64,000 nucleotides of DNA, from NCBI RefSeq assembly GCF_007997215.1, contig NZ_VORW01000020.1:1-64000 (forward strand), given 5' to 3'. Both the position numbers and the translations under genes were made by a program. The stretch is from Algoriphagus aquimarinus (lineage in GTDB: Bacteria > Bacteroidota > Bacteroidia > Cytophagales > Cyclobacteriaceae). Numbering within the stretch: position 1 is the stretch's first letter; each line of letters begins with the position of its first letter. This document shows positions 39,901-56,257 of this stretch, piece after piece. The notes below the pieces were generated by a model, which had not been told where the DNA came from, searched no databases, and saw nothing but the letters and a program-made list of their open reading frames with translations.

Positions 39901-40167
39901 GATACCTGGAGGCTAGTGGAAGTATCAGGCTCAAGCTCCATTACAATCAGCGGATCAGGTACAATCATCGATGAGTTAAGGGTACATCCGCCAACTAGCC
40001 AAATGACAACTTATACTATAAAGCCGCAGATCGGTATGTGGAGCCAAATGGATGCTAAGAATCACGGCAGCTATTACCAATATGATCCTTTTGGCAGGTT
40101 AGAAACTGTCAAAAATGAGGACGGGCATATCCTTAAGCATTTTGAATATACCTATATCAAACCCTAA
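36946..40167 (+). CDS. Secreted YD/RHS-repeat protein (first Rhs-locus gene)
   Basis: 1073 residues. Signal peptide (ends AFGQL), then the opening typical of Bacteroidetes Rhs-like secreted proteins: NVNLYTGTPDISIPLFEIQSG and GLGWSVQVGGQVSRTIVG. Tyr-rich YD-like repeats run through the middle, and the C-terminus ends PQIGMWSQMDAKNHGSYYQYDPFGRLETVKNEDGHILKHFEYTY. It lacks a core/toxin tip, so it is probably the shell part (SpvB/TcB-like) to which the downstream toxin-bearing half belongs. Export is by signal peptide; there is no VgrG, PAAR or T6SS gene nearby. Confidence 0.8.
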   Translation: MALKILLRGPLLYLLFFIGFVTNAFGQLPGDVSSQVQKLIPNPSQQSPNAAAIQKYGDYNVNLYTGTPDISIPLFEIQSGAISVPIVLSYHSSGTHYTDRASWAGLGWSVQVGGQVSRTIVGKPDESSFLTGTNDYTVGTYDFCTNFYYKEQTASGSNDREPDLFSYSFPGGSGRFVLQQGGLPPLLFPESAIKITRNPNYYDITDTKGTMYRFGSNWAGNVNAKESMSSYGAAVTSGVVNWYLQEIKSPNTDDYVTFKYQDVGSYIVSEIESNITLMDNWNTASAEFLPCNSYNPVETLISTTNTSTQMGIDEIFFNTGKVKFIMGTSRTDVPGGSSLKKLDKIEVYSKVNSSYILIKSYKLLNSGYFKLAVNNTDARLKLDGIEVRDGANTLINKYGFSYNTTTFSWDKSEGSYRRDLFGFYNGKTANTNLIPQETVQYRAQSYHSPTNLTIGGADRSTDTTIYKEGVLKRITFPTGGYTEFQFEPHKYSDAGVTKYGAGLRIKKIVKNDGLNTYSTLYKYGSNDDGIGHKNFDVRNFHFMNTIYKRDISYMTGFPQRQYTVRTWVSNSVVGPGFDDAPVVYTNVSEYANSTSGNGKTAYEFDNNLLISDGVFAVPYSNKIWRNKKSWQRGKLTKVTKYDNLNNIKEVTTKSYTKYKGQTLKVGQAAIQTIVGEESGNYFNYCAGTGGGQAYDGHRYMISTIEQDVGVFLETSSIVESQYATGSIQTVTNKAYHANYLQPTYEEVISSGNPGTVRTNFRYNYDVVGTGTTYTGLPDALKQMLLKNMISSPVEQYTWVKEGAGASEVISGQVTEYALVAGTSLYVPASVYFLETTSPVTTYTPLAVSGTNALTKDSRYKLRMSMQGFDTRGNLLQYEMTNGPVTSFVYGYDGKYLIAEATNSIVGNIAYTSFETNEKGGWTYTGAESPVLSGQAKTGSNVYLLNNGQVTKSVTGAYKLSFWVRKNDATAASLTINGTAYAGTIDDTWRLVEVSGSSSITISGSGTIIDELRVHPPTSQMTTYTIKPQIGMWSQMDAKNHGSYYQYDPFGRLETVKNEDGHILKHFEYTYIKP

Positions 40168-40278
40168 TCCATCTAATTTTTAACGATATGAAATCGAACA
40201 CGACTATTAATTTACGCAGATGGATGATAATAATCCATGTGAGATTCCATGTGGCCAATAAAATTAAATTATAAACAC

Positions 40279-40746
40279 ATGAAAACATTGACTAGCCTGC
40301 TGATTCTTATGGTGATAGGACTCAGCAATCTTTCAGCTCAGGACTTGATTTTGTCAGATTCCTTGTCAGCAGAAGAAATCAAATTGGTAGGGGTGTGGAA
40401 AGTAAATCTGCCAGAGCAGAAAAGTAAACTGGATGCTGAATCCAAGACTAAGGTGAACCAATTGGACAGCAAGGGGCAGGAGGGATTTTGGAACGCAACG
40501 GAATCCAGAGTGTATGCTCTGGATGGGGAAAGAAACTTTGTAATGACCTGGGTTTCTGAAGGATCACACAATGAAGTGATTGGGAAATGGAAGTTGGAGG
40601 CTAAGACAGGTATTCTTAAGTTATTTGGAGAGCATGAGCTGTTTGAATATCAAGTGGAATTTAAAGAGAAATCACAGATTTGGATTCCAATTACCAAGTC
40701 TAAGGAAGGCCTGAATGTTCTTTATATTAAAGGGTTGGGATTATGA
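40279..40746 (+). CDS. Small exported lipocalin-like protein between the two Rhs genes
   Basis: 155 residues from the ATG at 40279, chosen because it begins a signal peptide (MKTLTSLLILMVIGLSNLSAQ). The mature part (VGVWKVNLPEQ, FVMTWVSEGSHNEVIGKWKLEA, ELFEYQVEF) has alternating beta strands like lipocalin-type domains in Bacteroidetes. It overlaps the toxin Rhs gene by 4 bp (ATGA), so the three genes form one operon. Possible chaperone or surface partner of the Rhs protein (inference). The 111-bp gap before it holds only a 28-codon ORF of doubtful reality. Confidence 0.6.
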   Translation: MKTLTSLLILMVIGLSNLSAQDLILSDSLSAEEIKLVGVWKVNLPEQKSKLDAESKTKVNQLDSKGQEGFWNATESRVYALDGERNFVMTWVSEGSHNEVIGKWKLEAKTGILKLFGEHELFEYQVEFKEKSQIWIPITKSKEGLNVLYIKGLGL

Positions 40747-43700
40747 GAAAAATTGTAATACTCCTAATCCTTTGGATTGTGGTACGTCCTGTTTCCGCTC
40801 AGATTGTTTCCACCTCTGCCTGTGTCTCGGTAATTCCTTCTGCACCTTCAATTGTTATCACCACTAGTCAAGCAGTTACACTCACAGCAAATGCAGCCCC
40901 GTCAGGTTTTAGCTATCAGTGGTATGACGGGGATCAGACACCCATTCTACCCAGTAATCAAAGCCTACCTACAGGGACATTAACTGGGAGCAAGACTTTT
41001 TATATTGCTTACCGTCATACTTCTTCAGGTTGTATGACCTCAATGGTTCCTGTAAGAGTTAATTTTTATGCCGAGGATCGTAACTGGACTAGGGAGTATA
41101 CTTCTAGGGATACACTTACTGCGGATTTTGCGTTGAGGAATTCTTCACAACAGGCATCCTATAAACAGACGAGTTATCATGACGGGTTAGGAAGAGTAAA
41201 CCAACAAGTTGCAATTCAGGCTTCGGTAAATGGTTCTGATATCATTACCCCGGTAGTTTATGATACCTACGGTAGACCTTATCGTGATTATTTGCCTTTT
41301 CCAAACAATACCACCAGCCAGAGACTCTATCGTTCTACAGCAACAGATCTTCATAGCAGTTACTATACGGCAGAATATGCAGATAGTAGAGGATATGCAG
41401 ATAAGAGCTATGAAGCCTCACCACTCAATAGAGTATTGCAACAGGCTGTGCCTGGGACTGCCTGGGTAGGTCACGAATTGGAGTATTTAGAGGATATCAA
41501 TTTAGCCCAGGATCAGGTGAAGATATGGACTGTAAATTCTTCGGGTCTTCCTGTAGATGCGGGATTTTTTGCTGCCGGAGCTTTATCAAAAGCTGAGATG
41601 TATAATGAACAAGACCAACGGACGATAGAATATAAGGATAAGTTAGGGAGGTTGATTTTGAAAAAAGTGCAAATCGATGCTGTTCCTACTGCACATCATG
41701 TTGGATGGATGTGCACCTATTATATTTATGATAAATTGGGCAAACTTAGGGTAGTCATGACCCCAAAAGCTGTTGAAGCAGTGGTGACAGGTGGGCAAAG
41801 CTCAACCTTGACCACTATCAGTGATGGACTCTACTACCTCTACTCCTATGATGAGCGAGGAAGGATGATTACTAAGAAAATTCCGGATAAAGGAACCGAA
41901 GAAATGGTGTATGACCTTCAGGATAGATTGGTAGCATCACGCGATGCCCTCTTGATGGCCCAAGTTAAATGGTCATTTGCCAAATACGATGCTTTAGGCA
42001 GGGAGGTAATGACCGGACTAGTGGCTTATTCAGGAGCCAGAACAACTTTACAAACACTTGTAAATGGATTGGGATCCAATAATGCGGTAATCAATTTCAC
42101 ATCTGGAAAAACAGGGGCTACCAATGCAGGTGGTTTTCCTAGAGTTGCCGATGGAGGGGAGGCAGATGTACTAACTGTGAATTACTACGACAATTACGCA
42201 TTTCGAAAATCCACGCTCACCTATGTAAAGCCCACAGGCTATCATGACAGCAGTACCAAAACCACTGGTTTATTGACGGGTACTCTGGTAAAAAACCTGG
42301 GCAATAACACCCGGTATGAAACTGCCGTTTATTACGACTCGCAGGGAAGATTAATCCAGACCATTTCTGACCATCATTTGGCAGGGACAGTCAGGATTTC
42401 CAGTAGGTACGATTTTGAAAATAAACCAGTTGAAACGATTACCCAGCATACTACACCAAGTAGCTATACCATTACCAAAGGGTATGTCTATAACGCCGCA
42501 GGAGCCTTAAGCCACATTACTCATAAGATCAATTCAGGTGGAGTAGTCACATTGGCAACTCATACCTATAATCAATTAGGAGAACTTACATCAAAAGCTT
42601 ATCCTGTAGCGGGGGATGCGGTGACCAGTTTTACTTATAATATCAGGGGCTGGCTGAAGAAAATCAATGATCCGCAGGTTAGCAATTCAGCATCCAAAGT
42701 TTTTGCCCAGGAATTGTTTTATGAGACGGGTGGTACTGGATTATATTGGAATGGCAATATCGCAAAGGCAGAATGGAGAGGACAGGATGATATTAAGAAA
42801 ATCTATAATTTCACTTATGATGCAGCGAATAGAATAAAAACTGCCCAATACACAGTACCAACCAATTCGGTTCATAACGGAAGATATAACTTGGGCTATA
42901 TCAATTACGACGCAAATGGTAATATTACCACCTTGCAGCGGGTGAACCAGCAAAATTCAAACATTTGGGCATTAGTGGATAATCTAGCTTATACCTATCA
43001 AAACAACAGCAACAAGCTAATAGGGGTGGAAGACTACCAGGGTGTTACCACTTATCTATCTAAAGATTTTAAAGATAATAATACTGCATACTATTCTTAT
43101 GATGCAAATGGCAATCTAACTGTGAATGGGGATAAAGAAATCACCTCTATTACCTATAACCATCTAAATCTTCCCCTCACCATTACTTTTTCTGGAACAA
43201 ATAAGAAAATCGATTATTGGTATGATGCGCAGGGAGTGAAACTCCGTCAGGTCAATACGGATGGAGCCACAGTTAAGACCTTAGATTATCTGGGAGAACT
43301 CGTATTTGAAAATAATGCGATATCCTATGTCCTGCATGAGGAAGGAAGAGCTGCGTATGAGAATTCTGCCTTCCAGTATGAATTCTTTGTAAAAGATCAT
43401 CTGGGAAATGTAAGGCAGGTGATTCGTGCTCCGATATCCGGAGCCAGAATAGCCACTATGGAACCTGAGAATGCAGAAGAGGAGGAGAAAGAATTTAAAG
43501 GAATCAGAGAATCCCGTCAGGGAGCCGGAGAGCACAACAAAACTCCGGGAGGATATGCCACGGCTTGGCTGAATGCTGGTAGAAACCGTATTCTTGGCCC
43601 TTCCCGTTCTCAGGAAGTTCAGCAGGGTGACAGTGTGGAACTAGGGGTATTTGGTAAGTACGTAGATCCAAAGAAAATCAGACTTTCTCCGGCCAGCTTT

Positions 43701-44861
43701 GTACGCACGGGTATGGATAAGAAGCTAATCCAGCAACTCACCGAATATGGTCAGAACCTCAGTGCAGGGGGAGTGAATGAAATCGCTATTGCCAATGTGA
43801 TCGCATTGGTGATCACCGAACTACAACAGAAGCCTGTCCCGGAAGCCTACATGGGCTATGCTTTATACGATAGTGATAGTACGCTATATGAGCAGGGAAA
43901 AGTAATCCTATCTAAAAAAGCGAGAAATAAACATGAGGAGCTTATTGAGAAAATAGCAATAAAAAAGGATGGCTATATTGAGACTTATTTGGTCAATGAA
44001 ACTTCTGATGATGTGTGGTTTGATCAATTTAGGATTCTGAGTACAGGGCCGCTCATCGTCCAAGAGACGCACTATGATCCCTGGGGAGTGGAGCTTTCTG
44101 GTTTGGGGTATCAATATGGAGGAATCAAAATAAATCCGTATTTATACAACGGCAAGGAGGCAAACGGCCACATCGGAGTGAATCTGTATGATTATGGAGC
44201 TAGGTTATATGATCCGGCAATAGGTAGATGGTTTGTATCGGATCCTATGGCGGAGAAGATGCGGAGACATTCTCCTTACAATTATGCCTTTAATAATCCG
44301 CTGAGGTATATAGATCCAGATGGTATGGAACCATACGAGGTGATGGGTGCGGTAACTCAAGGACCACCTGATGCTGAGGATCCAACGCAGAAGAGTGTGT
44401 TGAATGGGGAGGAGAGTGCTCCTGGAAATAACTGTGAAGGATGTATGATGTTACCAGAGGTAGTTGTGGAAGCACCTAAAGTAGATAAAGCTCTGGCCAT
44501 ACCATTCCCTTTGTCACCAAGTCTAGGTATAAATCCTGTTACTGCTTGGGCTGGAATATCATTAGGTGCAGCTTATGTTGCATACGATGCAGGGATAAAT
44601 ATAGAAGCAACTACTATTTCAATAGCTAATCTATTGCATAGATTAGGGGTTCCTGAACATGTGTTACATTCAAAGGGAGGAAGAAGAAATATTTGGCCTG
44701 ATCAATACGGTACTCCACCAAAAGTTGGAGATATTGATTGGAATAAGTCAGATTCGCAATTAGCAGATAAAATATCTAACGGAGCTGGAGATAGCAAGCG
44801 TGGGCCAACTTCCCCAAATAATCAATTAAAAAAATGGTTTAGAGATAAACGTCCTAAATAA
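40743..44861 (+). CDS. Full-length Rhs polymorphic toxin (DUF6443, YD repeats, RHS core, C-terminal toxin)
   Basis: 1372 residues. Signal peptide (ends VSAQI); a PKD/Ig-like beta region (20-105); DUF6443-like region (about 115-260: NWTREYTSRDTL, YHDGLGRVNQQVAI, PVVYDTYGRPYRDYLPF); many YD repeats (300-900); and the RHS-associated core about 1085-1196 (DPWGVELSGLGYQYGG, GARLYDPAIGRWFVSDP, NNPLRYIDPDGME). After PDGM the C-terminal 175 residues are the variable toxin: a hydrophobic segment (NPVTAWAGISLGAAYVAYDAG) then a basic Gly/Asp/Lys end (RRNIWPDQYGTPPKVGDIDW). I do not recognise that toxin fold. It is the only toxin-bearing member of the array with its own N-terminus. Confidence 0.85.
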   Translation: MRKIVILLILWIVVRPVSAQIVSTSACVSVIPSAPSIVITTSQAVTLTANAAPSGFSYQWYDGDQTPILPSNQSLPTGTLTGSKTFYIAYRHTSSGCMTSMVPVRVNFYAEDRNWTREYTSRDTLTADFALRNSSQQASYKQTSYHDGLGRVNQQVAIQASVNGSDIITPVVYDTYGRPYRDYLPFPNNTTSQRLYRSTATDLHSSYYTAEYADSRGYADKSYEASPLNRVLQQAVPGTAWVGHELEYLEDINLAQDQVKIWTVNSSGLPVDAGFFAAGALSKAEMYNEQDQRTIEYKDKLGRLILKKVQIDAVPTAHHVGWMCTYYIYDKLGKLRVVMTPKAVEAVVTGGQSSTLTTISDGLYYLYSYDERGRMITKKIPDKGTEEMVYDLQDRLVASRDALLMAQVKWSFAKYDALGREVMTGLVAYSGARTTLQTLVNGLGSNNAVINFTSGKTGATNAGGFPRVADGGEADVLTVNYYDNYAFRKSTLTYVKPTGYHDSSTKTTGLLTGTLVKNLGNNTRYETAVYYDSQGRLIQTISDHHLAGTVRISSRYDFENKPVETITQHTTPSSYTITKGYVYNAAGALSHITHKINSGGVVTLATHTYNQLGELTSKAYPVAGDAVTSFTYNIRGWLKKINDPQVSNSASKVFAQELFYETGGTGLYWNGNIAKAEWRGQDDIKKIYNFTYDAANRIKTAQYTVPTNSVHNGRYNLGYINYDANGNITTLQRVNQQNSNIWALVDNLAYTYQNNSNKLIGVEDYQGVTTYLSKDFKDNNTAYYSYDANGNLTVNGDKEITSITYNHLNLPLTITFSGTNKKIDYWYDAQGVKLRQVNTDGATVKTLDYLGELVFENNAISYVLHEEGRAAYENSAFQYEFFVKDHLGNVRQVIRAPISGARIATMEPENAEEEEKEFKGIRESRQGAGEHNKTPGGYATAWLNAGRNRILGPSRSQEVQQGDSVELGVFGKYVDPKKIRLSPASFVRTGMDKKLIQQLTEYGQNLSAGGVNEIAIANVIALVITELQQKPVPEAYMGYALYDSDSTLYEQGKVILSKKARNKHEELIEKIAIKKDGYIETYLVNETSDDVWFDQFRILSTGPLIVQETHYDPWGVELSGLGYQYGGIKINPYLYNGKEANGHIGVNLYDYGARLYDPAIGRWFVSDPMAEKMRRHSPYNYAFNNPLRYIDPDGMEPYEVMGAVTQGPPDAEDPTQKSVLNGEESAPGNNCEGCMMLPEVVVEAPKVDKALAIPFPLSPSLGINPVTAWAGISLGAAYVAYDAGINIEATTISIANLLHRLGVPEHVLHSKGGRRNIWPDQYGTPPKVGDIDWNKSDSQLADKISNGAGDSKRGPTSPNNQLKKWFRDKRPK

Positions 44862-44869
44862 TTATAAAT

Positions 44870-45448
44870 ATGAATGCGTCAGATAAATACAGGAAATACT
44901 TAATTAGTATCCAATTAACTGATAAAAGGTTGTTTGCAGTTTGGGGTACTGATTTGTCGGACGATGAAAGAGATAAGTTGATAATTTCCAATGCTGGAAT
45001 GATTATTTGCTCGGTAGATTTTAGAGCTTTTAAAGACTATTTATTGAAAAATGTAACTTCTTTTTTTGATGTAGATAATTTGAGTAAATGGCTATTGGAG
45101 GTGGGTTCGGCTGATCTAAGTGTTTCATATGATTTTAATAATATTCGACGTTTTATAAAAAATAAGAATAAAATTAGTGATGTTGAGAAGGGTGAGTTAA
45201 TTGAAATTGTTGATTTTTTAAATATTGCGTTAGATTATTCAACTCAGATAGATAGTATGTATTTGAATTCTAGGTTAAATGAGAGAAATGTATTAATGTT
45301 TAAAGATTATGTCTATAATAATTTTATGTGGAATTCGGATTCAAATCAAATAGATTCTCGGATGGATAATGAATTTGATTTGAAAAAATTCCACATTCAT
45401 TTACTGGAAATATTGGATTCAATTAAAGTGAGTTTACTAGAAGTATGA
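44870..45448 (+). CDS. Candidate immunity protein for the full-length Rhs toxin
   Basis: 192 residues starting 8 bp after the toxin stop. Soluble and acidic, with an N-terminal beta-like part (YLISIQLTDKRLFAVWGTDLSDDE) and helical remainder. No recognised family. Immunity is inferred from position only: each Rhs tip in this locus is followed by a different small ORF in the same way. It is markedly more AT-rich than the Rhs core, as is common for immunity genes. Confidence 0.55.
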   Translation: MNASDKYRKYLISIQLTDKRLFAVWGTDLSDDERDKLIISNAGMIICSVDFRAFKDYLLKNVTSFFDVDNLSKWLLEVGSADLSVSYDFNNIRRFIKNKNKISDVEKGELIEIVDFLNIALDYSTQIDSMYLNSRLNERNVLMFKDYVYNNFMWNSDSNQIDSRMDNEFDLKKFHIHLLEILDSIKVSLLEV

Positions 45449-45491
45449 ATTTATTGAGATCTCAGTAAAGATGTTAAATCATAATAAATCT

Positions 45492-45738
45492 GGTTTCTAT
45501 GCAGAGGTAAGAGGTAGGAGGTAGAGTTTCTGAATTTGGGTTCTCAAGAAATAATTTGATTGAATCTAATTTTCCACATAACAGTCCACTAAACAATAAG
45601 AAGTTGTCTAGCCTCTATGGCTTGCGATTAAAAGGCTTTTTTGATAAAAGGAGTAGTAACATTGGAACCTTACGGTTTAGTGATTCAAGTGTGTTCGAAA
45701 ACTTTTATAACACAGTATTAAAAGGAAAGGGGTTTTGA
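45492..45738 (+). pseudogene. Truncated C-terminal toxin tip (duplicate of the tip ending at 49937)
   Basis: Encodes only the final portion of the toxin domain found intact at 48591-49937, including the last 60 codons (ESNFPHNSPLNNKKLSSLYG to GKGF), identical there. Upstream the copy has a small insertion and a frame shift (GAGGTAAGAGGTAGGAGG versus GAGGGAAGAGGTAGAGG) and no Rhs core, so it cannot be made as a toxin. It begins the long direct repeat 45540-46680. Confidence 0.75.
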
Positions 45739-46142
45739 AAATTAAATTATGTTCAGTTTTAATTATCCTAATTATATCAGGCTGTTCAAAGAGAATAACT
45801 TCAAATGAAGTTATTGGAAATTGGTGGTCTATTAAGGTTGATTCAAGCTACTCTGAAACTTATGTTAATGAAGTTGAATGGGTGTATAATCATGAGGATT
45901 TTGGGCCATTTTCATATAAATATACTTTCTATTCAGATTCAATTTGCATTGGGGTTAAAAAGTGGGCTCTAAATGTATCTGATACTAGTTTGGTGTTAAG
46001 TGACCATCAGGAAAAATTTATTTTATATAAATTACCTCTTAAGGAATCAATTTTTGAATCAAGGAAGGATAGTTTAGCCTATGAGAATTTTCAAGAAGAA
46101 TTTAGGAAAAGGTATTTGAGTAAGCTAAAAATAGAAAAATAG
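45735..46142 (+). CDS. Duplicate immunity-candidate lipoprotein (copy 1)
   Basis: 135 residues, same protein as 49934-50341. TTG start overlapping the preceding stop (TTGA). Lipoprotein signal with lipobox LIISGC (Cys17), then a beta-rich domain (EVIGNWWSIKVDSSYSETY). Outer- or inner-membrane lipoprotein expected. Its cognate toxin here is truncated, so this copy may be an orphan immunity gene protecting against relatives carrying the intact toxin. Confidence 0.6.
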   Translation: MKIKLCSVLIILIISGCSKRITSNEVIGNWWSIKVDSSYSETYVNEVEWVYNHEDFGPFSYKYTFYSDSICIGVKKWALNVSDTSLVLSDHQEKFILYKLPLKESIFESRKDSLAYENFQEEFRKRYLSKLKIEK

Positions 46143-46196
46143 ATTAGTTATACTAGTAATTTATAATCATTAAATTTCTGTTGGACTAGCCTCCTA

Positions 46197-46389
46197 TTGG
46201 ATACCCCCCATAATTTCGACTTTCTCAGGACAGGCACGGATAAAAAACTAATCCAGCAACTTACTGAATACGGTCAGAACCTAAGCACAGTTGGGGTCAA
46301 TGAAATCGCCATTGCCAATGTGATCACATTGGTGATCACCGAACTACAACAGAAACCAGTACCGGGACTATATGGGTTACGCATTGTAT
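46197..46389 (+). pseudogene. Rhs-core fragment interrupted by palindromic repeats
   Basis: Encodes FDFLRTGTDKKLIQQLTEYG onward to ELQQKPVPGLYGLRIV, a piece of the Rhs tip region matching residues about 985-1040 of the full-length protein. It ends where a REP-like element (46392) has replaced the continuing sequence. No start signal and no toxin. Confidence 0.7.
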
Positions 46390-46391
46390 AG

Positions 46392-46598
46392 CCTGTCCCA
46401 ATGAGCGCAGCGATATCGGGAATGAAGATTCTACTTTATAGAGGAATAGGGCTGAGCGTAAAGAAACAGCCCAGTGGACTGTTTTAGCTAAGAGCCAGGC
46501 TGTGGGTAGGAAATCCCCACTGAGTGAAGTATAACGGTGGTAGTACCTAGGTGTAATTTGTAATTACACCTTCATATCCTTTAGAATTTGTAATTCTA
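46392..46598 (+). repeat. Cluster of small palindromic (REP-like) elements, copy 1
   Basis: Element A, CCTGTCCCAATGAGCGCAGC ending ATATCGGGA (46392-46421). Element B, GGGCTGAGCGTAAAG to GGGTAGGA (46449-46511), with an inner AACAGCCC/GGACTGTT stem. Element C, perfect 10-bp stem AGGTGTAATT-TGT-AATTACACCT (46549-46571). Element D, TAGAATT-TGT-AATTCTA (46582-46598). The same cluster is at 50592-50798. Confidence 0.75.
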
Positions 46599-46723
46599 GT
46601 CCTTTATAAGGATCAGACTAAAGCACGAAGACACCAGGCGGCTATGCCTCGGCTTGGCTGAACGCTGGAAGAAACCGTATTCTCGGCCCTTCCAGATCTC
46701 AGGAAGTACAGCAAGGAGACAGC

Positions 46724-48109
46724 GTGGAGCTTGGAGTCTTTGGCAAGTATGTCGATCCCAAAAAACTCAGACTTTCTCCTGCCAGCTTTGTACGCTCAGG
46801 AATGGATAAGAAGCTTATCCAGCAGCTCACCGAATACGGTCAGAACCTAAGCACAGTTGGGGTCAATGAAATTGCTATTGCCAATGTGATCGCATTGGTG
46901 ATCACTGAACTGCAACAGAAGCCTGTCCCGGAAGCCTACATGGGCTACGCGCTGTATGATTCAGATTCTACGCTCTACGAACAGGGAAAAGTCATCCTAT
47001 CCAAAAAAGCGAGAAACAAACATGAAGAACTGATCAAAAAGATCGCTGTACCAAAGGACGGATACATAGAAACCTACTTGGTCAATGAGACTTCAGATGA
47101 TGTGTGGTTTGATCAGTTTAGGATTCTCAGCACCGGACCACTTATCGTACAGGAAACCCATTACGATCCTTGGGGAGTGGAGCTTTCAGGTTTGGGTTAC
47201 CAGTATGGAGGAATTAAAGTGAATCCATATCTTTATAACGGAAAAGAGGCAAACGGCCACTTGGGAGTGAATCTATATGACTTCGGAGCCCGACTATATG
47301 ACCCTGCTATCGGTAGATGGTTTGTGTCGGATCCGATGGCGGAGAAGATGCGGAGACATTCTCCTTATAATTATGCTTTCAATAATCCGCTGAGATATAT
47401 TGATCCAGATGGGATGGAGCCGTATGAGGTGATGGGAGCTGTTACTACTTCAGGTGAGAGTATGAGTCAGGAGGATGAGACTCAGAAGAGCGTAGTGAAT
47501 GAGGAGGAGGTGATGATAGATACTGGGTATGGTCAAATGGTCAGCTCAAGAGATCTTCTTGGAGGAGTTGACTATGCTGGGAACTTCGAGACTGCTAAAA
47601 ATAACAAAGCAGAATCTCCCTTTACTTTACATAGTAATAGCGTCTCATCTAAACCATTCACTGGATCAATGCGTGATAGATCAACTTATTTCGAGGGGGT
47701 CAGAGTTTATACTACGGAGGTAGGAGATATTGGACGGGGTGCTGCAGGAACTTTACCAGGAGTAGGTATTTTTGTTAATCCTAATGATAAATTTAATAAA
47801 GACCTTTTAAGACATGAATTTGGTCATATTTTACAAGCTAGGAAATGGGGAATGGATTTTTTTTACGGAACTATTGTTTCAGAAAGTATTAAGAGTGCAA
47901 ATAGAGCTAATGAAATTAACGACCCTTCAAAATATAATCATCATGACTCTTGGACAGAATGGACTGCTAATTTTCTTTCTTGGCATTATTTTGGAAAACC
48001 ATCTAATTGGAATCCTTCTTATCAACTTTATCCAAGTAACATAAGATCTGGTTCGCTACAACCTATGCTTCCATCCAAACTTTTTATTGATCTAGAAAAA
48101 AAGAAATGA
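46724..48109 (+). CDS. Orphan Rhs tip with metallopeptidase-like (HEFGH) toxin domain
   Basis: 461 residues from an internal GTG; Rhs homology and the open frame start at 46622 just after a stop, and no ribosome site or signal peptide is present, so this looks like a silent tip rather than an expressed gene. It holds the conserved pre-core and core (through DPDGMEPYEVMGAVTTSG) and a new C-terminal domain from about residue 240. That domain carries HEFGH at 364-368 followed by a helix and HHDSWTEWTANFLSWHYFG, an HExxH zinc site with a downstream Glu, pointing to a peptidase effector. A candidate immunity gene follows. Confidence 0.75.
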   Translation: MELGVFGKYVDPKKLRLSPASFVRSGMDKKLIQQLTEYGQNLSTVGVNEIAIANVIALVITELQQKPVPEAYMGYALYDSDSTLYEQGKVILSKKARNKHEELIKKIAVPKDGYIETYLVNETSDDVWFDQFRILSTGPLIVQETHYDPWGVELSGLGYQYGGIKVNPYLYNGKEANGHLGVNLYDFGARLYDPAIGRWFVSDPMAEKMRRHSPYNYAFNNPLRYIDPDGMEPYEVMGAVTTSGESMSQEDETQKSVVNEEEVMIDTGYGQMVSSRDLLGGVDYAGNFETAKNNKAESPFTLHSNSVSSKPFTGSMRDRSTYFEGVRVYTTEVGDIGRGAAGTLPGVGIFVNPNDKFNKDLLRHEFGHILQARKWGMDFFYGTIVSESIKSANRANEINDPSKYNHHDSWTEWTANFLSWHYFGKPSNWNPSYQLYPSNIRSGSLQPMLPSKLFIDLEKKK

Positions 48110-48137
48110 TGTTAAATACCTTAAATCGAAAAAACAA

Positions 48138-48560
48138 ATGACAATTCAACTAAAAATCGCTTTAAAATTTCATTGTATGTTTTTTTTAGCTTTCTTTTTA
48201 CTTTCCTGTGACTATTATGATGGGAGGCTGGAGGTAATAAATAATAGAAATTATACTATAGCAGTTGAAACATTTTTGGATAGTATTCCTATTCACTCTG
48301 AAATAAAGCCAGAACCTTACTATATTAGTAATCAAATTTTGCCAAACGAATCGATACGATTGATTGAACTGGGTAGTACAAGAGGTTGGTCTTCTCGAAT
48401 TAACAGAAGTTATAATCATAAGTTAAATCTATTTGTTTTTAAAATAGATTCCTTGAGAATCTATGGAATAGATTCTTTACTCACTATGGGTCTTTATGAT
48501 AAATACATTTTATCAGAAATAGAATTGGACAAAAGAAACTGGAAAGTAGTTGTTAATTGA
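48138..48560 (+). CDS. Candidate immunity lipoprotein for the HEFGH tip
   Basis: 140 residues. Signal with lipobox FLLSC (Cys25; ATG at 48177 is an alternative start), then about 115 residues of beta-rich AT-rich sequence (RLEVINNRNYTIAVETF, IRLIELGSTRGWSS). No family recognised. Lipidation suits protection against a toxin acting in the periplasm or at the envelope, and fits a secreted peptidase. Confidence 0.6.
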   Translation: MTIQLKIALKFHCMFFLAFFLLSCDYYDGRLEVINNRNYTIAVETFLDSIPIHSEIKPEPYYISNQILPNESIRLIELGSTRGWSSRINRSYNHKLNLFVFKIDSLRIYGIDSLLTMGLYDKYILSEIELDKRNWKVVVN

Positions 48561-48590
48561 ATAAGACAATATTGAATTTCCTAGGATCGA

Positions 48591-49937
48591 TTGTCTCCTG
48601 TCAGCTTCATTCGGACAAGAATGTACAAGGAACTGATCCAGCAACTCACCGAATATGGCCAGAACCTCAGTGCCGGAGGAATCAACGAGATAGCCATTGC
48701 CAATGTGATCGTACTGGTGATCACCGAACTGCAACAGAAACCTGTTCCTGAGGCCTATATGGGCTATGCTTTATACGACAGCGATAGCACACTTTATGAG
48801 CAGGGAAAAGTTGTCCTTTCCAAGAAGGCAAGAAACAGGCACGAGGAACTGATCAAAAAGATCGCTGTTCCAAAAGATGGTTATATAGAAACCTATCTTG
48901 TCAACGAGACCTCTGACGATGTATGGTTCGATCAGTTTAGTATACTGAGCACCGGTCCACTAATAGTTCAAGAAACCCATTATGACCCGTGGGGTGTGGA
49001 GCTTTCAGGTTTAGGGTATCAGTATGGTGGAATCAAAATAAATCCGTATTTATACTACGGCAAGGAGGCAAACGGCCACTTGGGTGTGAATCTATATGAC
49101 TTCGGAGCCCGACTATATGACCCTGCTATCGGTAGATGGTTTGTGTCGGATCCTATGGCGGAGAAGATGCGGAGACATTCACCTTATAATTATGCTTTCA
49201 ATAATCCGCTGAGGTATATTGATCCAGATGGGATGGAACCATACGAGGTGATGGGAACCGTCACTACTTCTGGAGAAAGTGAGAGCCAGGAGGACGAAAT
49301 ACAAACTGATGCTTCAAATGGCATGTTTGAGTTTGTTAAAGGAGGATATGGAGAGTTAATCGAGAGAGGTAGTGTAATTACCACAGGAGGCACTTATGAT
49401 AAGGATGGTAGAGCGATTAATCCATCACAGACAGTTTCAGTAGATTTTGAAGGTGGTAGCAATATTTCAGTTACGACTAAAAGAGGACCTAGAAATGATC
49501 AGGATGGACTACAAGCTTTAGCAAATATGTTTGCAAATGCCAAAGCAGGAGATAATTTGAGTGATTTCTTAGATTTTGATTTTTTCAATGATTTTAAAAA
49601 AGTTAGTGATCTAGGTGGAGGATTCAGGAATGAGGGAAAAATAAACAATACAACTATAAATATTTTTACAGGCACAAATATTATTTTTAATAGATTTGTT
49701 TTCTATGCAGAGGGAAGAGGTAGAGGTTCTGAATTTGGGTTTTCAAGAAATAATTTGATTGAATCTAATTTTCCACATAACAGTCCACTAAACAATAAGA
49801 AGTTGTCTAGCCTCTATGGCTTGCGATTAAAAGGCTTTTTTGATAAAAGGAGTAGTAACATTGGAACCTTACGGTTTAGTGATTCAAGTGTGTTCGAAAA
49901 CTTTTATAACACAGTATTAAAAGGAAAGGGGTTTTGA
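48591..49937 (+). CDS. Orphan Rhs tip with unidentified toxin domain
   Basis: 448 residues from a TTG; the match to the Rhs tip starts at SPVSFIRTRMYKELIQQL with no usable start context, so silent as it stands. Core intact through DPDGMEPYEVMGTVTTSG. The toxin domain (about 220-448) contains GGYGELIERGSVITTGGTYDKDGR, KAGDNLSDFLDFDFFNDF and INNTTINIFTG, and ends IGTLRFSDSSVFENFYNTVLKGKGF. I recognise no catalytic motif. Its stop overlaps the TTG of a lipoprotein gene. The end of this toxin is duplicated at 45492-45738. Confidence 0.75.
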   Translation: MSPVSFIRTRMYKELIQQLTEYGQNLSAGGINEIAIANVIVLVITELQQKPVPEAYMGYALYDSDSTLYEQGKVVLSKKARNRHEELIKKIAVPKDGYIETYLVNETSDDVWFDQFSILSTGPLIVQETHYDPWGVELSGLGYQYGGIKINPYLYYGKEANGHLGVNLYDFGARLYDPAIGRWFVSDPMAEKMRRHSPYNYAFNNPLRYIDPDGMEPYEVMGTVTTSGESESQEDEIQTDASNGMFEFVKGGYGELIERGSVITTGGTYDKDGRAINPSQTVSVDFEGGSNISVTTKRGPRNDQDGLQALANMFANAKAGDNLSDFLDFDFFNDFKKVSDLGGGFRNEGKINNTTINIFTGTNIIFNRFVFYAEGRGRGSEFGFSRNNLIESNFPHNSPLNNKKLSSLYGLRLKGFFDKRSSNIGTLRFSDSSVFENFYNTVLKGKGF

Positions 49938-50341
49938 AAATTAAATTATGTTCAGTTTTAATTATCCTAATTATATCAGGCTGTTCAAAGAGAATAACTT
50001 CAAATGAAGTTATTGGAAATTGGTGGTCTATTAAGGTTGATTCAAGCTACTCTGAAACTTATGTTAATGAAGTTGAATGGGTGTATAATCATGAGGATTT
50101 TGGGCCATTTTCATATAAATATACTTTCTATTCAGATTCAATTTGCATTGGGGTTAAAAAGTGGGCTCTAAATGTATCTGATACTAGTTTGGTGTTAAGT
50201 GACCATCAGGAAAAATTTATTTTATATAAATTACCTCTTAAGGAATCAATTTTTGAATCAAGGAAGGATAGTTTAGCCTATGAGAATTTTCAAGAAGAAT
50301 TTAGGAAAAGGTATTTGAGTAAGCTAAAAATAGAAAAATAG
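49934..50341 (+). CDS. Candidate immunity lipoprotein (copy 2, with intact toxin tip)
   Basis: 135 residues, TTG start overlapping the toxin stop. Lipobox LIISGC at Cys17; mature domain beta-rich with WSIKVDSSYSETYVNEVEW and a charged C-terminal helix (FQEEFRKRYLSKLKIEK). The 4-bp overlap shows it moves as one unit with the toxin tip. The TTG start is supported because it gives a complete signal peptide and no in-frame ATG is near. Confidence 0.65.
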   Translation: MKIKLCSVLIILIISGCSKRITSNEVIGNWWSIKVDSSYSETYVNEVEWVYNHEDFGPFSYKYTFYSDSICIGVKKWALNVSDTSLVLSDHQEKFILYKLPLKESIFESRKDSLAYENFQEEFRKRYLSKLKIEK

Positions 50342-50395
50342 ATTAGTTATACTAGTAATTTATAATCATTAAATTTCTGTTGGACTAGCCTCCTA

Positions 50396-50590
50396 TTGGA
50401 TACCCCCCATAATTTCGACTTTCTCAGGACAGGCACGGATAAAAAACTAATCCAGCAACTTACTGAATACGGTCAGAACCTAAGCACAGTTGGGGTCAAT
50501 GAAATCGCCATTGCCAATGTGATCACATTGGTGATCACCGAACTACAACAGAAACCAGTACCGGGACTATATGGGTTACGCATTGTTATA
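50396..50590 (+). pseudogene. Rhs-core fragment, second copy
   Basis: Same scrap as 46197-46389 within the long repeat, differing by a one-base insertion near 50586 (CATTGTTATAG versus CATTGTATAG). Followed by the palindrome cluster. Non-functional. Confidence 0.7.
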
Positions 50591-50591
50591 G

Positions 50592-50798
50592 CCTGTCCCA
50601 ATGAGCGCAGCGATATCGGGAATGAAGATTCTACTTTATAGAGGAATAGGGCTGAGCGTAAAGAAACAGCCCAGTGGACTGTTTTAGCTAAGAGCCAGGC
50701 TGTGGGTAGGAAATCCCCACTGAGTGAAGTATAACGGTGGTAGTACCTAGGTGTAATTTGTAATTACACCTTCATATCCTTTAGAATTTGTAATTCTA
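50592..50798 (+). repeat. Cluster of small palindromic (REP-like) elements, copy 2
   Basis: Element A 50592-50621, element B 50649-50711, element C 50749-50771, element D 50782-50798. Same order and sequence as the cluster at 46392-46598. Confidence 0.75.
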
Positions 50799-50821
50799 GT
50801 CCTTTATAAGGATCAGACTAA

Positions 50822-51193
50822 AGCACGAAGACACCAGGCGGCTATGCCTCGGCTTGGCTGAACGCTGGAAGAAACCGTATTTTTGGTCCTTCCAGGTCTC
50901 AGGAAGTACAGCAAGGTGACAGCGTGGAGCTTGGGGTATTTGGTAAGTACGTAGATCCAAAGAAATTCAGGTTGTCTCCAGCCAGCTTTGTACGATCAGG
51001 AATGGATAAGAAGCTAATCCAGCAACTCACCGAATATGGTCAGAACCTCAGTGCGGGAGGAGTGAATGAAATCGCTATTGCTAATGTGATCGCGCTGGTG
51101 ATCACTGAACTACAACAGAAACCTGTACCGGAAGCCTACATGGGCTATGCATTGTATGATTCAGATTCCACCTTATATGAACAAGAGGGCTGA
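50822..51193 (+). pseudogene. 5' half of an Rhs tip split by a REP-like insertion
   Basis: Encodes the tip from PGGYASAWLNAGRN through FVRSGMDKKLIQQL to DSDSTLYEQ, then runs into element B at 51187 and stops. The rest of the same tip resumes at about 51258 (LSKKARNKHEELIKK). Homologues read straight across this point, so one event replaced about 17 bp with a 63-bp palindromic element. Confidence 0.75.
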
Positions 51194-51249
51194 GCGTAAA
51201 GAAACAGTCCAGTGGACTGTTTTAGCGAAGAGCCAGGCTGTGGGTAGGA
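51187..51249 (+). repeat. REP-like element B inside an Rhs tip
   Basis: GGGCTGAGCGTAAAGAAACA to GTGGGTAGGA, with perfect stem AAACAGTCC-AGT-GGACTGTTT. Matches 46449-46511 with two base changes. It interrupts coding sequence, showing that this family moves or is templated into new sites. Confidence 0.75.
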
Positions 51250-51334
51250 AATCCTCTCCAAAAAAGCAAGAAACAAACACGAGGAGCTGATCAAGAAGAT
51301 TGCTGTACCTAAGGATGGGTATATAGAAACGTAC

Positions 51335-52321
51335 TTGGTCAATGAGACTTCTGATGATGTGTGGTTTGATCAGTTTAGAATTCTGAGTACAGGGCCGCTC
51401 ATCGTCCAAGAGACGCACTATGATCCCTGGGGAGTAGAGCTTTCTGGTTTGGGGTATCAATATGGAGGAATCAAAATAAATCCGTATTTATACAACGGCA
51501 AGGAGGCAAACGGCCACTTGGGAGTAAACATCTACGACTTCGGAGCTCGACTGTATGACCCTGCTATCGGAAGGTGGTTTGTGTCCGATCCGATGGCTGA
51601 GAAGATGCGTAGGCACTCACCTTACAATTTTGCGTTTAATAACCCACTGAGATATATTGATCCAGATGGGATGGAGCCCTATGAGGTGATGGGAAGCGTC
51701 ACTACTTCTGGAGAAAGTGAGAGCCAGGAAGATGAGACAGAGAAGAGCGTGGTGAATGAGGAGGAGACAGCGCCGGACAATGATTTTCTTTGGTCAGATG
51801 GATATAGTTATCAAAGTGCTAGGAATTCAATAATAGGTAGGGATTCTTTCAATGGTAGTTATCAGAAATATGTTGTTGGCGCTGACCTGAAAGATAATTC
51901 TGATAATTTATTTGAAAATCTTTTAGCCATTTATGATTATTTAATGTTAAACAATGGATTAACTAGAACAAAGGGAATTAAAAACGATCGAAATATTTAT
52001 TTTCATATAACAGATTTTATTAAAAACATACCAATTCATCAAAAAGGAGATAGTTATACGCAAACGATCACTAGCGAATCAAAATTTACAAGTCAAGGCA
52101 TCAAATACAGATATTCTATAAGTCCTGCTCAAGTTGCTAATCCCGGACAATATTATAATATGGGATATATATCTAAAATATTATCTAATAGTAATGGGAG
52201 TTTAGGTCAAATTTCTTTAATGAACGGAAATAATACACTATTTACATTATCAATTTATGGAAGACAGAACTTTGTTGAAAGATTTAATAAAATATATAAA
52301 GGAAATAAGATTATTCAATAA
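51335..52321 (+). CDS. Orphan Rhs tip, 3' part with a third toxin domain
   Basis: 328 residues from a TTG inside the core (the frame is open from about 51260 after the element B insertion). Contains the RHS core (DPWGVELSGLGYQYGG to DPDGMEPYEVMGSVTTSG) and a toxin domain of about 180 residues (NDFLWSDGYSYQSARNSIIG, GYISKILSNSNGSLGQISLM, FTLSIYGRQNFVERF). No catalytic motif recognised. Separated from its 5' half by a stop, so it cannot be expressed in place, but the toxin end is intact and could be moved by recombination. Confidence 0.7.
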   Translation: MVNETSDDVWFDQFRILSTGPLIVQETHYDPWGVELSGLGYQYGGIKINPYLYNGKEANGHLGVNIYDFGARLYDPAIGRWFVSDPMAEKMRRHSPYNFAFNNPLRYIDPDGMEPYEVMGSVTTSGESESQEDETEKSVVNEEETAPDNDFLWSDGYSYQSARNSIIGRDSFNGSYQKYVVGADLKDNSDNLFENLLAIYDYLMLNNGLTRTKGIKNDRNIYFHITDFIKNIPIHQKGDSYTQTITSESKFTSQGIKYRYSISPAQVANPGQYYNMGYISKILSNSNGSLGQISLMNGNNTLFTLSIYGRQNFVERFNKIYKGNKIIQ

Positions 52322-52880
52322 TTTGTTTTTGCTGTTTCTTATTATTAATTCATGCATTACTCCTAAGGATGAAGTTTTTGAAGGGCAGGAAGTCTTAAAA
52401 GAGTTTCAGGTGATTTTCCCTTATTTAAGTATAATTGATTCAACTTGGGATATAGTTTATCTTTTTAATGATGAAGATTTAGTTCAGTTTGAAGCATCGA
52501 AAAATGACAGTACTTTGAAATTTAACTATGTTAAGTTGACAAAAATACCAGAAGAAAATTGGGGTTTCCCTTCATCTAGTTTTTCTTATTGTTATGATAT
52601 TAGTAATATTACTTATTCTTGGGAGGATAAGGAAAAGGATACTTATATTCATTACACCGCAAAGCTAGATACTATATATCATTTTTATTGGAATACTGGA
52701 TATAGTTGGACGGGTGATCCATTTTTTATTAAAGGGAAATATACCTATTTGTATGAATACAACAGACTTACTCCTGATCAAATGAGGTATTATGAACAAA
52801 ATAAGGATTCTTTAACGAGAGTTTTAGGGGATGATTTACCCGATTTACCTTCCATCGAAGCAGTGAAAAGTTCATTGTGA
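52257..52880 (+). CDS. Candidate immunity lipoprotein for the third toxin
   Basis: 207 residues as the longest frame, overlapping the toxin end by 65 bp. The true start is probably the TTG at 52323 or a nearby non-ATG codon, since FLLFLIINSC at about residues 24-33 is a lipoprotein signal. The mature domain is AT-rich and beta-rich (DSTWDIVYLFNDEDLVQF, YDISNITYSWEDKEKDT) with a charged C-terminus. No family recognised. Confidence 0.6.
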   Translation: MEDRTLLKDLIKYIKEIRLFNNLFLLFLIINSCITPKDEVFEGQEVLKEFQVIFPYLSIIDSTWDIVYLFNDEDLVQFEASKNDSTLKFNYVKLTKIPEENWGFPSSSFSYCYDISNITYSWEDKEKDTYIHYTAKLDTIYHFYWNTGYSWTGDPFFIKGKYTYLYEYNRLTPDQMRYYEQNKDSLTRVLGDDLPDLPSIEAVKSSL

Positions 52881-52981
52881 ATAGGTGAAATGTTCCTATG
52901 GCGGATATCATGACTAGGTACTGACCCTCTACTTGCGCTCCTCTTGAAGGGATGGGGTATGCTATGATGTTATAAATGACC

Positions 52982-53705
52982 TGATCTAAGGAAATACAGC
53001 ATGGAGACGATGTGGAACTGGCGATTCCCGTACATCAGTCGGGAGGAAAATACGTAGATCCTAAGAAAATCAGACTTTCTCCAGCCAGCTTTGTACGCAC
53101 AGGTATGGATAAGAAGCTAATCCAGCAACTCACCGAATATGGTCAGAATCTCAGTGCAGGGGGAGTGAATGAAATCGCCATTGCCAATGTGATCGCGCTG
53201 GTGATTAACGAACTACAACAGAAACCGGTGCCTGAGGCTTATATGGGCTACGCACTCTACGATGCCGATTCAAACCTTTACGATCAAGGAAAAGTCATCC
53301 TATCCAAAAAAGCAAGAAACAAACACGAGGAGCTGATTAAAAAGATTGCTGTACCTAAGGATGGTTACATAGAAACGTATTTGGTCAATGAGACTTCTGA
53401 TGATGTGTGGTTTGACCAATTTAGGATTCTCAGCACTGGACCACTGATCGTGCAGTAAACTCATGGAGCCTGTCCCGATGAATGAAGCGAAGCGATATCG
53501 GGAAGCCTTGGGGAGTGGAGCTTTCAGGGCTTGGTTACCAGTATGGAGAGGGCGGAGCGTTAAGAAAATGTCCTGTGGACATTTTTAGTGAGGAGCCAGC
53601 TTGCAGGGCGGGAGGCAAACGGCCATCTTGGAGTGAATCTGTATGACTTCGGAGCCAGAATGTACGATCCAGCTATCGGGAGATGGTTTGTGCTGGATCC
53701 GATGG
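52982..53705 (+). pseudogene. Decayed Rhs tip without toxin, right end of the array
   Basis: Rhs tip sequence from GKYVDPKKIRLSPASFVRTG to RILSTGPLIVQ (open 53012-53458), a stop, then element A (53469-53503), the GVELSGLG core region, element B (53550-53613), and finally AND-GHLGVNLYDFGARMYDPAIGRWFVLDPM before homology ends at about 53705. No toxin or immunity gene remains. This is the most degraded cassette and lies nearest the integrase. Confidence 0.75.
53469..53613 (+). repeat. REP-like elements A and B in the decayed Rhs tip
   Basis: Element A CCTGTCCCGATGAATGAAGC ending ATATCGGGA (53469-53503; arms TCCCGAT/ATCGGGA). Element B GGGCGGAGCGTTAAG with ATGTCC-TGT-GGACAT stem (53550-53613). 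Both replace core sequence that is continuous in the other tips. Confidence 0.7.
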
Positions 53706-56160: not shown

Positions 56161-56183
56161 GGTTTCCCTTGGAAAGGGTTCTG

Positions 56184-56257
56184 TCGGGGTGGCAGGATTC
56201 GAACCTACGACCTCCTCGTCCCAAACGAGGCGCGATACCGGGCTACGCTACACCCCG
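56184..56257 (-). tRNA. tRNA-Pro (anticodon TGG)
   Basis: Minus strand reads CGGGGTGTAGCGTAGCCCGG and so on, with anticodon stem-loop CTCGTTTGGGACGAG (anticodon TGG), T-arm GGTTCGAATCC and acceptor 3' strand CACCCCGA. All four stems pair. CCA is not encoded. Its 3' end faces the integrase, making it the probable attachment target of the element. Confidence 0.93.

Follow-up and report, generated by a model that had tools for sequence, protein, structure and literature searches.

The window analysed here is a stretch of 64,000 nucleotides of Algoriphagus aquimarinus DNA (positions 1 to 64,000 of contig NZ_VORW01000020.1). It carries an array made up of one complete Rhs gene, then orphan tips 2, 3 and 4, each of which consists of a core, a toxin-like end and an immunity-like gene, and then a toxinless core remnant 5. 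The genes and core copies, with the two reading frames that precede them, are as follows:

36946..40167, plus strand: 1073-aa ORF with a signal-like start, candidate Rhs partner
40249..40746, plus strand: 165-aa ORF between the candidate partner and the Rhs gene
40743..44861, plus strand: complete Rhs gene, 1372 aa (signal-like start, Ig_7, DUF6443, RHS repeats, RHS-associated core, toxin end 1; Pfam and NCBIfam)
43539..44345, plus strand: core of the complete gene, ending at DPDGMEPYEVM (reference core nt 1-807)
44361..44861, plus strand: linker and toxin end 1, without a Pfam match
44870..45448, plus strand: immunity candidate 1, 192 aa, no signal peptide seen, 9 nt past the toxin stop
45520..45738, plus strand: beheaded C-terminal tail of toxin 3, 72 residues, probable displacement remnant
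45735..46142, plus strand: second, identical copy of immunity gene 3, lipoprotein-like
46230..46390, plus strand: core shard
46628..47446, plus strand: core of orphan tip 2, uninterrupted
47447..48109, plus strand: toxin end 2, with an HEFGH motif
48138..48560, plus strand: immunity candidate 2, lipoprotein-like
48594..49255, plus strand: core of orphan tip 3, 5' part missing, otherwise uninterrupted
49256..49937, plus strand: toxin end 3, complete
49934..50341, plus strand: immunity candidate 3, lipoprotein-like
50429..50584, plus strand: copy of the core shard
50828..51183, plus strand: core of orphan tip 4, part 1
51250..51693, plus strand: core of orphan tip 4, part 2
51694..52321, plus strand: toxin end 4
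52257..52880, plus strand: immunity candidate 4, lipoprotein-like by eye, start uncertain (the mechanical ORF overlaps toxin end 4)
53045..53454, plus strand: core remnant 5, first piece, toxin end absent
53611..53705, plus strand: core remnant 5, last piece

By its repeats and by a core that precedes a variable C-terminus, the locus can be assigned to the Rhs polymorphic toxins: RHS_repeat matches the complete gene at 6e-9, and Rhs_assc_core matches the complete gene and tips 2-4 at 2e-16, 3e-17, 2e-15 and 5e-16. The N-terminal PAAR-type domain that marks T6SS-type Rhs effectors is absent from the Pfam matches at E <= 0.05 (only DUF6443, RHS_repeat, Ig_7 and a weak Ig_2 were found), and by that mark the gene would not belong to them. 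Searched across the 5.16-Mb genome, the core has nine matches at E <= 0.001, and every one falls inside the array; the orphan core copies are 80-89% identical in DNA to the core of the complete gene. The first-pass annotation had seen a complete gene followed by at least four partial tips; tips 2-4 do run through DPDGMEPYEVMG and then diverge, each with a small ORF of its own, but what it took for the last tip (53.0-53.7 kb) stops short of DPDGMEPYEVMG, has no toxin end and is cut by two hairpins, the tip 4 core is split by a 66-nt hairpin, and a toxin 3 tail and second immunity gene 3 behind immunity gene 1 had been overlooked. Its statement that the extra tips lack starts holds insofar as nothing resembling a signal-peptide start, and no match to DUF6443 or the YD repeat, is seen in the orphan frames, but in-frame GTG and TTG codons occur within the cores. 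The orphan frames may be startless, and the orphan tips are probably silent.

The same layout is present in other genomes, including the single-contig G357 and G114, so the array is not a chance arrangement. Many relative contigs end in or near such arrays, which might point to an assembly error that collapsed or chained repeats, but a full gene with orphans lies within single-contig G357 and G114 and orphan arrays are found in G085, and we regard such an error as hardly credible.

The tips are presumably toxic and the adjoining small ORFs their immunity genes, although no Pfam toxin domain was found in toxin ends 1-4. When toxin ends and immunity ORFs were searched against Pfam at E <= 10, eCIS_core on toxin end 2 (0.12) and P53_tetramer on toxin end 4 (0.15) came up sub-threshold and were set aside as chance-like, and a sub-threshold NCBIfam match of immunity candidate 1 to Spt5 is not believed either. 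Toxin end 2, without a Pfam match above cut-off, carries an HEFGH motif that we take to be metalloprotease-like and has orphan relatives in G357 and A. aestuarii; the last 109 aa of toxin end 3 are 75% identical to a G357 orphan. Among 93 tips compared, tips 2 and 3 have only orphan relatives, tip 1 has an orphan relative at only 33%, and toxin end 4 has no relative. The last 110 aa of toxin end 1 share 85% identity with a G293 tip lying at a contig edge, and behind that related tip lies an ORF 46% identical to immunity candidate 1. Several immunity candidates had been called lipoproteins on first pass; in the window this fits two of the four kinds (2 and 3, by a crude pattern) and immunity 4 by eye, but over all loci lipoprotein-like genes adjoin a minority, 19 of 83 closed tips of at least 60 aa, so lipoprotein immunity is common, yet not the rule.

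The stretch behind toxin 1 records an earlier state of the gene. Positions 45520-46670 duplicate 49719-50870 with 3 differences in 1152 columns, and this 1.15-kb repeat contains the toxin 3 tail (98.6% identical in amino acids to toxin 3 residues 144-215), the immunity gene 3 copy, a core shard and two hairpins. Its remnant at 45520-46142 sits directly behind immunity gene 1, and we read the repeat as the footprint of a recent C-terminal displacement. Because the tail of toxin 3 and its immunity gene remain behind toxin 1 and immunity 1, the working gene, as judged from this arrangement, recently carried toxin 3. Toxin 1 probably arrived from outside, since orphans in another species have a similar linker (over the region at core nt 781-900, 90/88% and 93/78% identity to two L072 orphans). 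A by-eye check for older tips lying farther from the gene gave no clear trend.

The core copies of the window also look mosaic. Fourteen comparisons of core pieces (pairs with at least 40 shared variable sites) were each set against 2000 shuffles, which ignore rate variation along the core. Runs of shared variants of 17 sites between the working gene and the second part of tip 4, of 24 sites between tips 2 and 3, and of 16 sites between tip 3 and the second part of tip 4 were each reached by 0 of 2000 shuffles; the other 11 comparisons were matched by 21 to 1988 of 2000.

Do relatives carry the same toxins in different states? We compared 93 tips falling into 66 toxin clusters (8 of the 93 lie at contig edges, and L063, scored as an orphan, also starts at one); the loci were picked for strong or multiple matches, so the frequencies are not representative of the family. 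Nine of the 66 clusters are mixed, their toxin being mounted on a full gene in one genome but orphaned in another (8 of the nine at >= 50% identity), and in 45 of 48 pairs of bodies with at least 70% identity the tips are unrelated (E <= 1e-4); the bodies of G227 and G325, for example, are 95% identical over 1203 aa and bear unrelated tips. One tip and immunity cassette is borne by a full gene in G267 and is an orphan in G293, which are two species: the cassettes are 98% identical over 1630 bp and the toxins at 230 of 230 aa, whereas the two genomes' front cores are 87% identical, and the same toxin is again an orphan in A. pacificus (90%). The proposal that similar bodies should be found with different tips is thus borne out, and a reservoir of toxin and immunity genes with tip exchange, as the first-pass annotation had envisaged, is supported by comparison between species. 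This evidence consists of differences between species, and switching within one strain was not seen.

Since relatives show mixed clusters, swapped tips and a cassette in two states, the known process of Rhs C-terminal displacement appears to be at work, and we consider it very probable that this is an Rhs polymorphic-toxin locus evolving in that way, with one delivery body and displaced or stored cassettes behind it. The array, the remnant, the patchy cores and the exchange of tips between species are apparent from the sequences themselves. Only the complete gene would bear the export and delivery body, and the cassettes behind it should not be exported alone. Homologous recombination between cores would mount a cassette on the body or push the resident one downstream, the far side joining in the next core copy or through an illegitimate junction; such crossovers could place tips 2-4 on the body. 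The footprint is only 3 differences old, and one cassette is caught in both states in two species.

Orphan cores, relieved of coding duty, would also have been open to invasion by REP-like hairpins, of which the array contains two families:

46391..46421, plus strand: family B hairpin, one mismatch to the pattern
46447..46512, plus strand: family A hairpin
50591..50621, plus strand: family B hairpin, copy
50647..50712, plus strand: family A hairpin, copy
51185..51250, plus strand: family A hairpin splitting the tip 4 core, 66 nt, site near core nt 357
53468..53503, plus strand: family B hairpin in remnant 5
53548..53613, plus strand: family A hairpin in remnant 5, site near core nt 582

In the alignment of the hairpins 96.8% of the cells are paired and 9 of 16 pairs are changed on both sides; such both-side changes fill 64 cells, where shuffles average 15.8 and none of 500 attains this value, and for two of the five measures 8 and 20 of 500 shuffles did as well. 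The host genome has 16 matches at E <= 0.01, 12 of them outside the array, and matches occur in 38 of 59 genomes of the genus. Of these 12, 11 were inspected by eye and 8 have a GTAG foot, which is absent at the feet of the array copies; those in Rhs cores mostly begin GAGG. By their pairing and dispersal, the hairpins in orphan cores appear to be a REP-like, dispersed and conserved element. A Y1_Tnp gene carrying a stop lies 1.3 kb away from one copy. RAYT transposition as a sure source is weakened by G283, in which 59 copies occur without any Y1_Tnp at E <= 0.001. Rfam gave no match at E <= 1 over 40-56 kb. The word TAYGATCC, the family B target, occurs 11 times in the window where 3.9 would be expected; as repeated cores account for 5 of these occurrences, the excess is no independent evidence.

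REP-like hairpins have entered 26 of 62 orphan units and 0 of 19 full genes, at a few recurrent core sites such as those near core nt 357, 535, 582 and 672, and none was found in the toxin reading frames. Site-specific entry at a few fixed positions in one orientation might even serve as punctuation, silencing stored tips and confining crossovers to the stretch before the toxin: the hairpins would cut the frame and leave only the last ~130-450 nt of the core as clean homology. We think this very unlikely; if true, a mobile hairpin would be part of the storage of a bacterial weapon. What is new here is REP-like hairpins in orphan cores at recurrent sites, displacement itself being a known process, and titles in the open-access literature revealed no prior report of hairpins or REPs in orphan Rhs cores or of Algoriphagus Rhs arrays. 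As natural markers, the hairpins point to copies that no longer face coding constraint, and because they recur at certain sites, the choice of targets by REP-like elements becomes testable.

The stops and hairpins in core copies, together with the missing toxin end of remnant 5 and of the L043 orphan (a 75-aa frame), could also mean that the tips are dead debris of past displacement, useless now, and that the apparent swaps are past exchange. Against this, of the 64 orphan or contig-edge tips whose frame is closed and reaches 60 aa, 58 extend >= 150 aa past the core (from an initial 88 tips, 4 shorter than 60 aa and one with an open frame had been dropped before this count), the hairpins spare the toxin frames, a near-identical cassette is found in two states, and pN/pS is below 1 (0.12-0.55) in 15 of 15 related tip pairs, a ratio that is blind to selection on orphan versus body-mounted tips and has synonymous sites near saturation in many pairs. 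We judge debris alone unlikely. Alternatively, orphan cassettes may persist by virtue of their immunity genes, as a defence store against the toxins of neighbours, the toxin ends riding along; an ORF of at least 70 aa follows near the stop behind 63 of 64 orphan or contig-edge tips (a permissive search with no chance control) and immunity gene 3 is present twice, identical, in the window, but the toxin frames stay open too, and such a role, while possible, seems to us somewhat doubtful.

Displacement with storage behind one body has close counterparts. In Salmonella and other enterobacteria (PMC3967940), a full rhs gene has behind it an orphan tip that carries a core piece and an immunity gene but neither a start nor an export signal; 522 bp at 95% identity in the core were proposed as the route to fusion, the orphan toxins are found on full genes in other strains, and switching was selected and measured in one strain. 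In contrast, the evidence here is comparative, the cores are 80-89% identical, there is no PAAR match and the setting is a Bacteroidota mobile element. The part of PMC3482391 drawn on, a general survey of polymorphic toxins with the toxin-immunity cassette order, likewise describes standalone cassettes that replace a tip with its immunity gene, and leftover strings of immunity genes that mark former replacements; neither the present type of array nor its hairpins appear in that part. For bee-gut symbionts, the excerpts of PMC8125069 report 103 of 208 toxin clusters as orphan-only and arrays formed by paired homologous and illegitimate recombination; those arrays differ in being mainly from Proteobacteria with T6SS-type Rhs, and the Rhs of Apibacter (Bacteroidetes) has SpvB/TcdB domains and a presumed T9SS link. 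The reference list there credits C-terminal displacement to BMC Genomics 10:584. The same evolutionary engine as in Proteobacteria would be documented here in one Bacteroidota genus and its kin, for Rhs without a PAAR match. REPs inside genes, and a Bacteroidetes TnpA subclass flanked by atypical hairpins, are known from the passages used of PMC6006769 and PMC3733652; the present hairpins resemble the REP and TnpA-REP/RAYT elements described there in size, and 8 of 11 dispersed copies show, by eye, a GTAG foot, but the core copies mostly begin with GAGG, occupy recurrent positions in a single gene family and have only a putative transposase link. Extragenic palindromes are mentioned once in PMC10210955.

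The first-pass annotation also placed the array on an integrative conjugative element. That reading has its basis in CtnDOT-type conjugation matches (P-loop_TraG, CtnDOT_TraJ, Transposon_TraM and DUF4138, the last of which we take to be TraN) and in a tyrosine recombinase at a tRNA-Pro:

54663..55892, minus strand: tyrosine recombinase (Phage_integrase, Phage_int_SAM_5, Arm-DNA-bind_5)
56183..56257, minus strand: tRNA-Pro adjoining the recombinase, probable integration site

The second att site was not found: the tRNA-Pro region has no repeat of >= 17 bases in the window, which starts at a contig end, and none of >= 15 bases in the next 12 kb, and a 15-base inverted match, the only one found, was rejected. 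From its conjugation genes and recombinase, the array appears to sit on a CtnDOT-like conjugative element. Of 40 relative loci, only 6 contain a homologue of this integrase (in 2 of these, at 41-43% identity over nearly the whole length), and the arrays are therefore not bound to this element. A strict Bacteroidetes promoter pattern has 0 matches inside the array and 4 in the whole window (3.3 in shuffles), and a terminator scan gave no excess over shuffles.

Upstream of the Rhs gene, the 165-aa ORF is without a Pfam match and has a homologue in the same position in 11 of 40 relative loci; the 1073-aa ORF, with only a sub-threshold RHS_repeat match in Pfam, at its end, has one upstream of the Rhs body in 18 of the 40.

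The window takes up the first 64 kb of an 81.8 kb contig in a 5.16 Mb genome, and Algoriphagus species are the nearest named relatives at its locus. The complete Rhs gene and the two ORFs upstream of it are as follows:

40743-44861: complete Rhs gene (tip 1), with a signal-like start, Ig_7, DUF6443, RHS repeats and RHS-associated core
36946-40167: 1073-aa ORF, with a homologue in the equivalent position at 18 of 40 relative loci
40249-40746: 165-aa ORF, with a homologue in the equivalent position at 11 of the 40

The two ORFs (36946-40746), conserved before the Rhs body, are possible partners of it. Core copies 2 to 5 lie 3' of the complete gene at 80-89% identity, and all 9 core matches in this genome (E ≤ 0.001) are inside the array. 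The first-pass annotation described the copies behind the Rhs gene as tips with different C-terminal ends and, for all but the last, small ORFs; this holds for tips 2, 3 and 4, each of which has a toxin-like end with an ORF behind it, but copy 5 has neither.

A 269-aa core query, searched at E ≤ 1e-30 against 390 genomes drawn from the family, matched in 133 of them and in 43 of 84 genera. Among the matches listed, 40 relative loci were fetched, picked for strong or multiple hits, and 11 of 39 further loci were examined later. Clustering took in 93 tips whose closed frame spans 130 aa or more, leaving out near-duplicate loci L114 and L127 and shorter tips; full genes bear 23 of the 93, 62 are orphans lacking a body and 8 lie at contig edges. 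On their last 110 aa these tips form 66 clusters, 17 of them multi-member. Full-gene and orphan tips are mixed in 9 of the 66, eight at 50% identity or more (one of which depends on L063, a locus that starts at a contig edge) and the ninth, window tip 1 with L046, at 33%. The 25 bodies compared, 23 of them full and 2 truncated by a contig edge, yield 48 pairs with 70% identity or more across the aligned part, and 45 of these are without a related tip (E ≤ 1e-4). Related genomes thus do bear different tips on similar Rhs bodies, as the annotation had proposed to check. The reverse case is given by the window and relative genome G293, where tip 1 is shared at 85% identity and the bodies are 76% identical over 461 aa. 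The clearest case is a cassette (tip plus immunity ORF) of G267 and G293 that is 98% identical over 1630 bp, with 230 of 230 toxin residues identical; of the differences in the displayed alignment, which stops just short of completion, nearly all fall in core sequence at either end. The cassette is on a full gene in G267 and is an orphan in G293, where it follows another tip and has a core shard of 48 codons.

The window carries a footprint of displacement: after immunity gene 1 come the beheaded tail of toxin 3, then immunity gene 3 again in an identical copy, and after it a shard of core and two hairpins. Positions 45520-46670 differ from the equivalent stretch behind tip 3 at 3 of 1152 alignment columns, and identity falls to 70-94% in the flanking 50-column windows. 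The simplest history would be a recent replacement of toxin 3 by toxin 1 on the working gene, which would have borne toxin 3 until recently, toxin 1 and its immunity gene then being placed in front. The toxin 1 linker has no match among the linkers of tips 2-4 in this comparison, and around it (two windows of 60 nt, core nt 781-900) two orphans of locus L072 are 90/88% and 93/78% identical, which argues that the toxin 1 cassette is probably of outside origin. The array cores also look mosaic: in 14 comparisons of core pieces that share 40 or more variable sites, each set against 2000 shuffles, the runs were reached by no shuffle in three (working gene and tip 4, second part; tips 2 and 3; tips 3 and 4, second part), by 21 and 25 shuffles in two, by 73 in one and by at least 268 in eight.

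Survival was counted on 88 tips, less 4 that are shorter than 60 aa and one whose frame is open. Of the closed tips off full genes (contig-edge units included), 58/64 keep at least 150 aa past the core, and a permissive search, run with no chance control, places the start of an ORF of 70 aa or more close to the stop in 63/64. Values of pN/pS are 0.12-0.55 across 15 related tip pairs, five of which join two orphans (0.14-0.55), with others involving a full gene or contig-edge unit. That several immunity candidates are lipoproteins is borne out in part: with start codons set mechanically, the next ORF conforms to a crude lipobox pattern in 14/64 units off full genes and 5/19 full ones, and 37/80 next ORFs have a hydrophobic N-terminus.

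Carriage by an ICE had also been proposed; the array is indeed framed by CtnDOT-kind conjugation genes (TraG, TraJ, TraM, DUF4138) and, next to tRNA-Pro, a tyrosine recombinase, but a search for the element's far end did not find it. Integrase homologues are in only 6 of the 40 relative loci, so the arrays are not bound to this conjugative element. Judged from these comparisons, the system works as Rhs C-terminal displacement, in which a new cassette is inserted before the resident one, and shows its tested defining features; that the tips are delivered and toxic, the ORFs protective and the orphans silent is inferred. It differs from known cases in its host group, in having no PAAR match, in its carriage here by a conjugative element and in the hairpins that invade its presumably silent cores, an invasion of which we found no prior report in searches of an open-access library.

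These palindromes are present in the shards, in tip 4 and in remnant 5. The 66-nt hairpin of family A covaries: 9/16 pairs have changes on both sides, in 64 cells where shuffles average 15.8. Members of families B and C are shorter. Searching the window array and 40 loci by pattern gave 60 hairpins, 59 on the coding strand (the lone opposite-strand match, in L047, is doubtful) and 58 within a core match or at most 131 nt from one; of the other two, L045 8211 stands next to body sequence, 459 nt ahead of a core, and L043 12288, a doubtful match, is 4.6 kb from one. None of the 60 was found inside a tip frame, nor in any toxin or immunity stretch, and this answers the objection that a toxin frame would be closed by the insertion. 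The 900 nt before the core end hold at least one hairpin in 26/62 orphan units, 0/19 full genes and 0/7 contig-edge units (one-sided Fisher 2e-4 for the first two, too small a probability because the units are related by descent). At 12 loci with both kinds of unit, again related by descent, the orphan unit has a hairpin in 8 and the full unit in none. A gene of G278 (L062, 1141-aa open frame) that reaches a family A copy at the contig end is a possible exception.

Left break points, mapped on core nt with near-duplicates L043 and L114 both counted, cluster: for family A near 352-357 (11 copies), 580-582 (13), 608-611 (7) and 617-620 (3), with 12 unplaced; for B near 326-329 (2), 533-537 (10) and 671-672 (6), with 3 unplaced; and for C at 464-479 (4), with 1 unplaced. 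The B sites coincide with TATGATCC-like words. Different A subfamilies occupy the first A site in different species (by eye), which suggests repeated entry there and not inheritance alone.

Outside arrays, all 10 dispersed A copies inspected in this genome lie between mechanical ORFs, as do 17/19 in two relatives, the other 2 overlapping ORF ends. This genome has 16 family A matches at E ≤ 0.01, 4 of them within the 13-kb array (2 being one duplicated copy), and 38/59 genus genomes have matches, with a maximum of 58 in one; 34 of the 35 copies used to build the model are array copies, and its scores therefore favour arrays. We read the hairpins as REP-like elements, apparently tolerated where no translation occurs. 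The genomes G283, G357 and G395 each have 47 to 59 hairpins of family A, frequently clustered, and a Y1_Tnp search of G283 gave no match. In this genome a gene that resembles a Y1 transposase and has an in-frame stop (C22:571717-572076, L099) is 1.3 kb from a dispersed A hairpin (C22:570378). Three dispersed A copies in L101 (9161, 11350, 13372), ~2 kb apart between unrelated genes, have by eye similar flanks past the 66 nt that are absent from the Rhs-core copies.

Elsewhere in the window, the ORF at 60277-61830 has a start much like that of the next gene (61924-63666, presumably a GMC-type oxidoreductase) by eye and looks as if a gene start had been duplicated and fused; we take its remainder to be a Tat-signal Gfo/Idh-like protein. 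The 882-aa ORF at 16591-19239 presumably resembles lantibiotic dehydratase.
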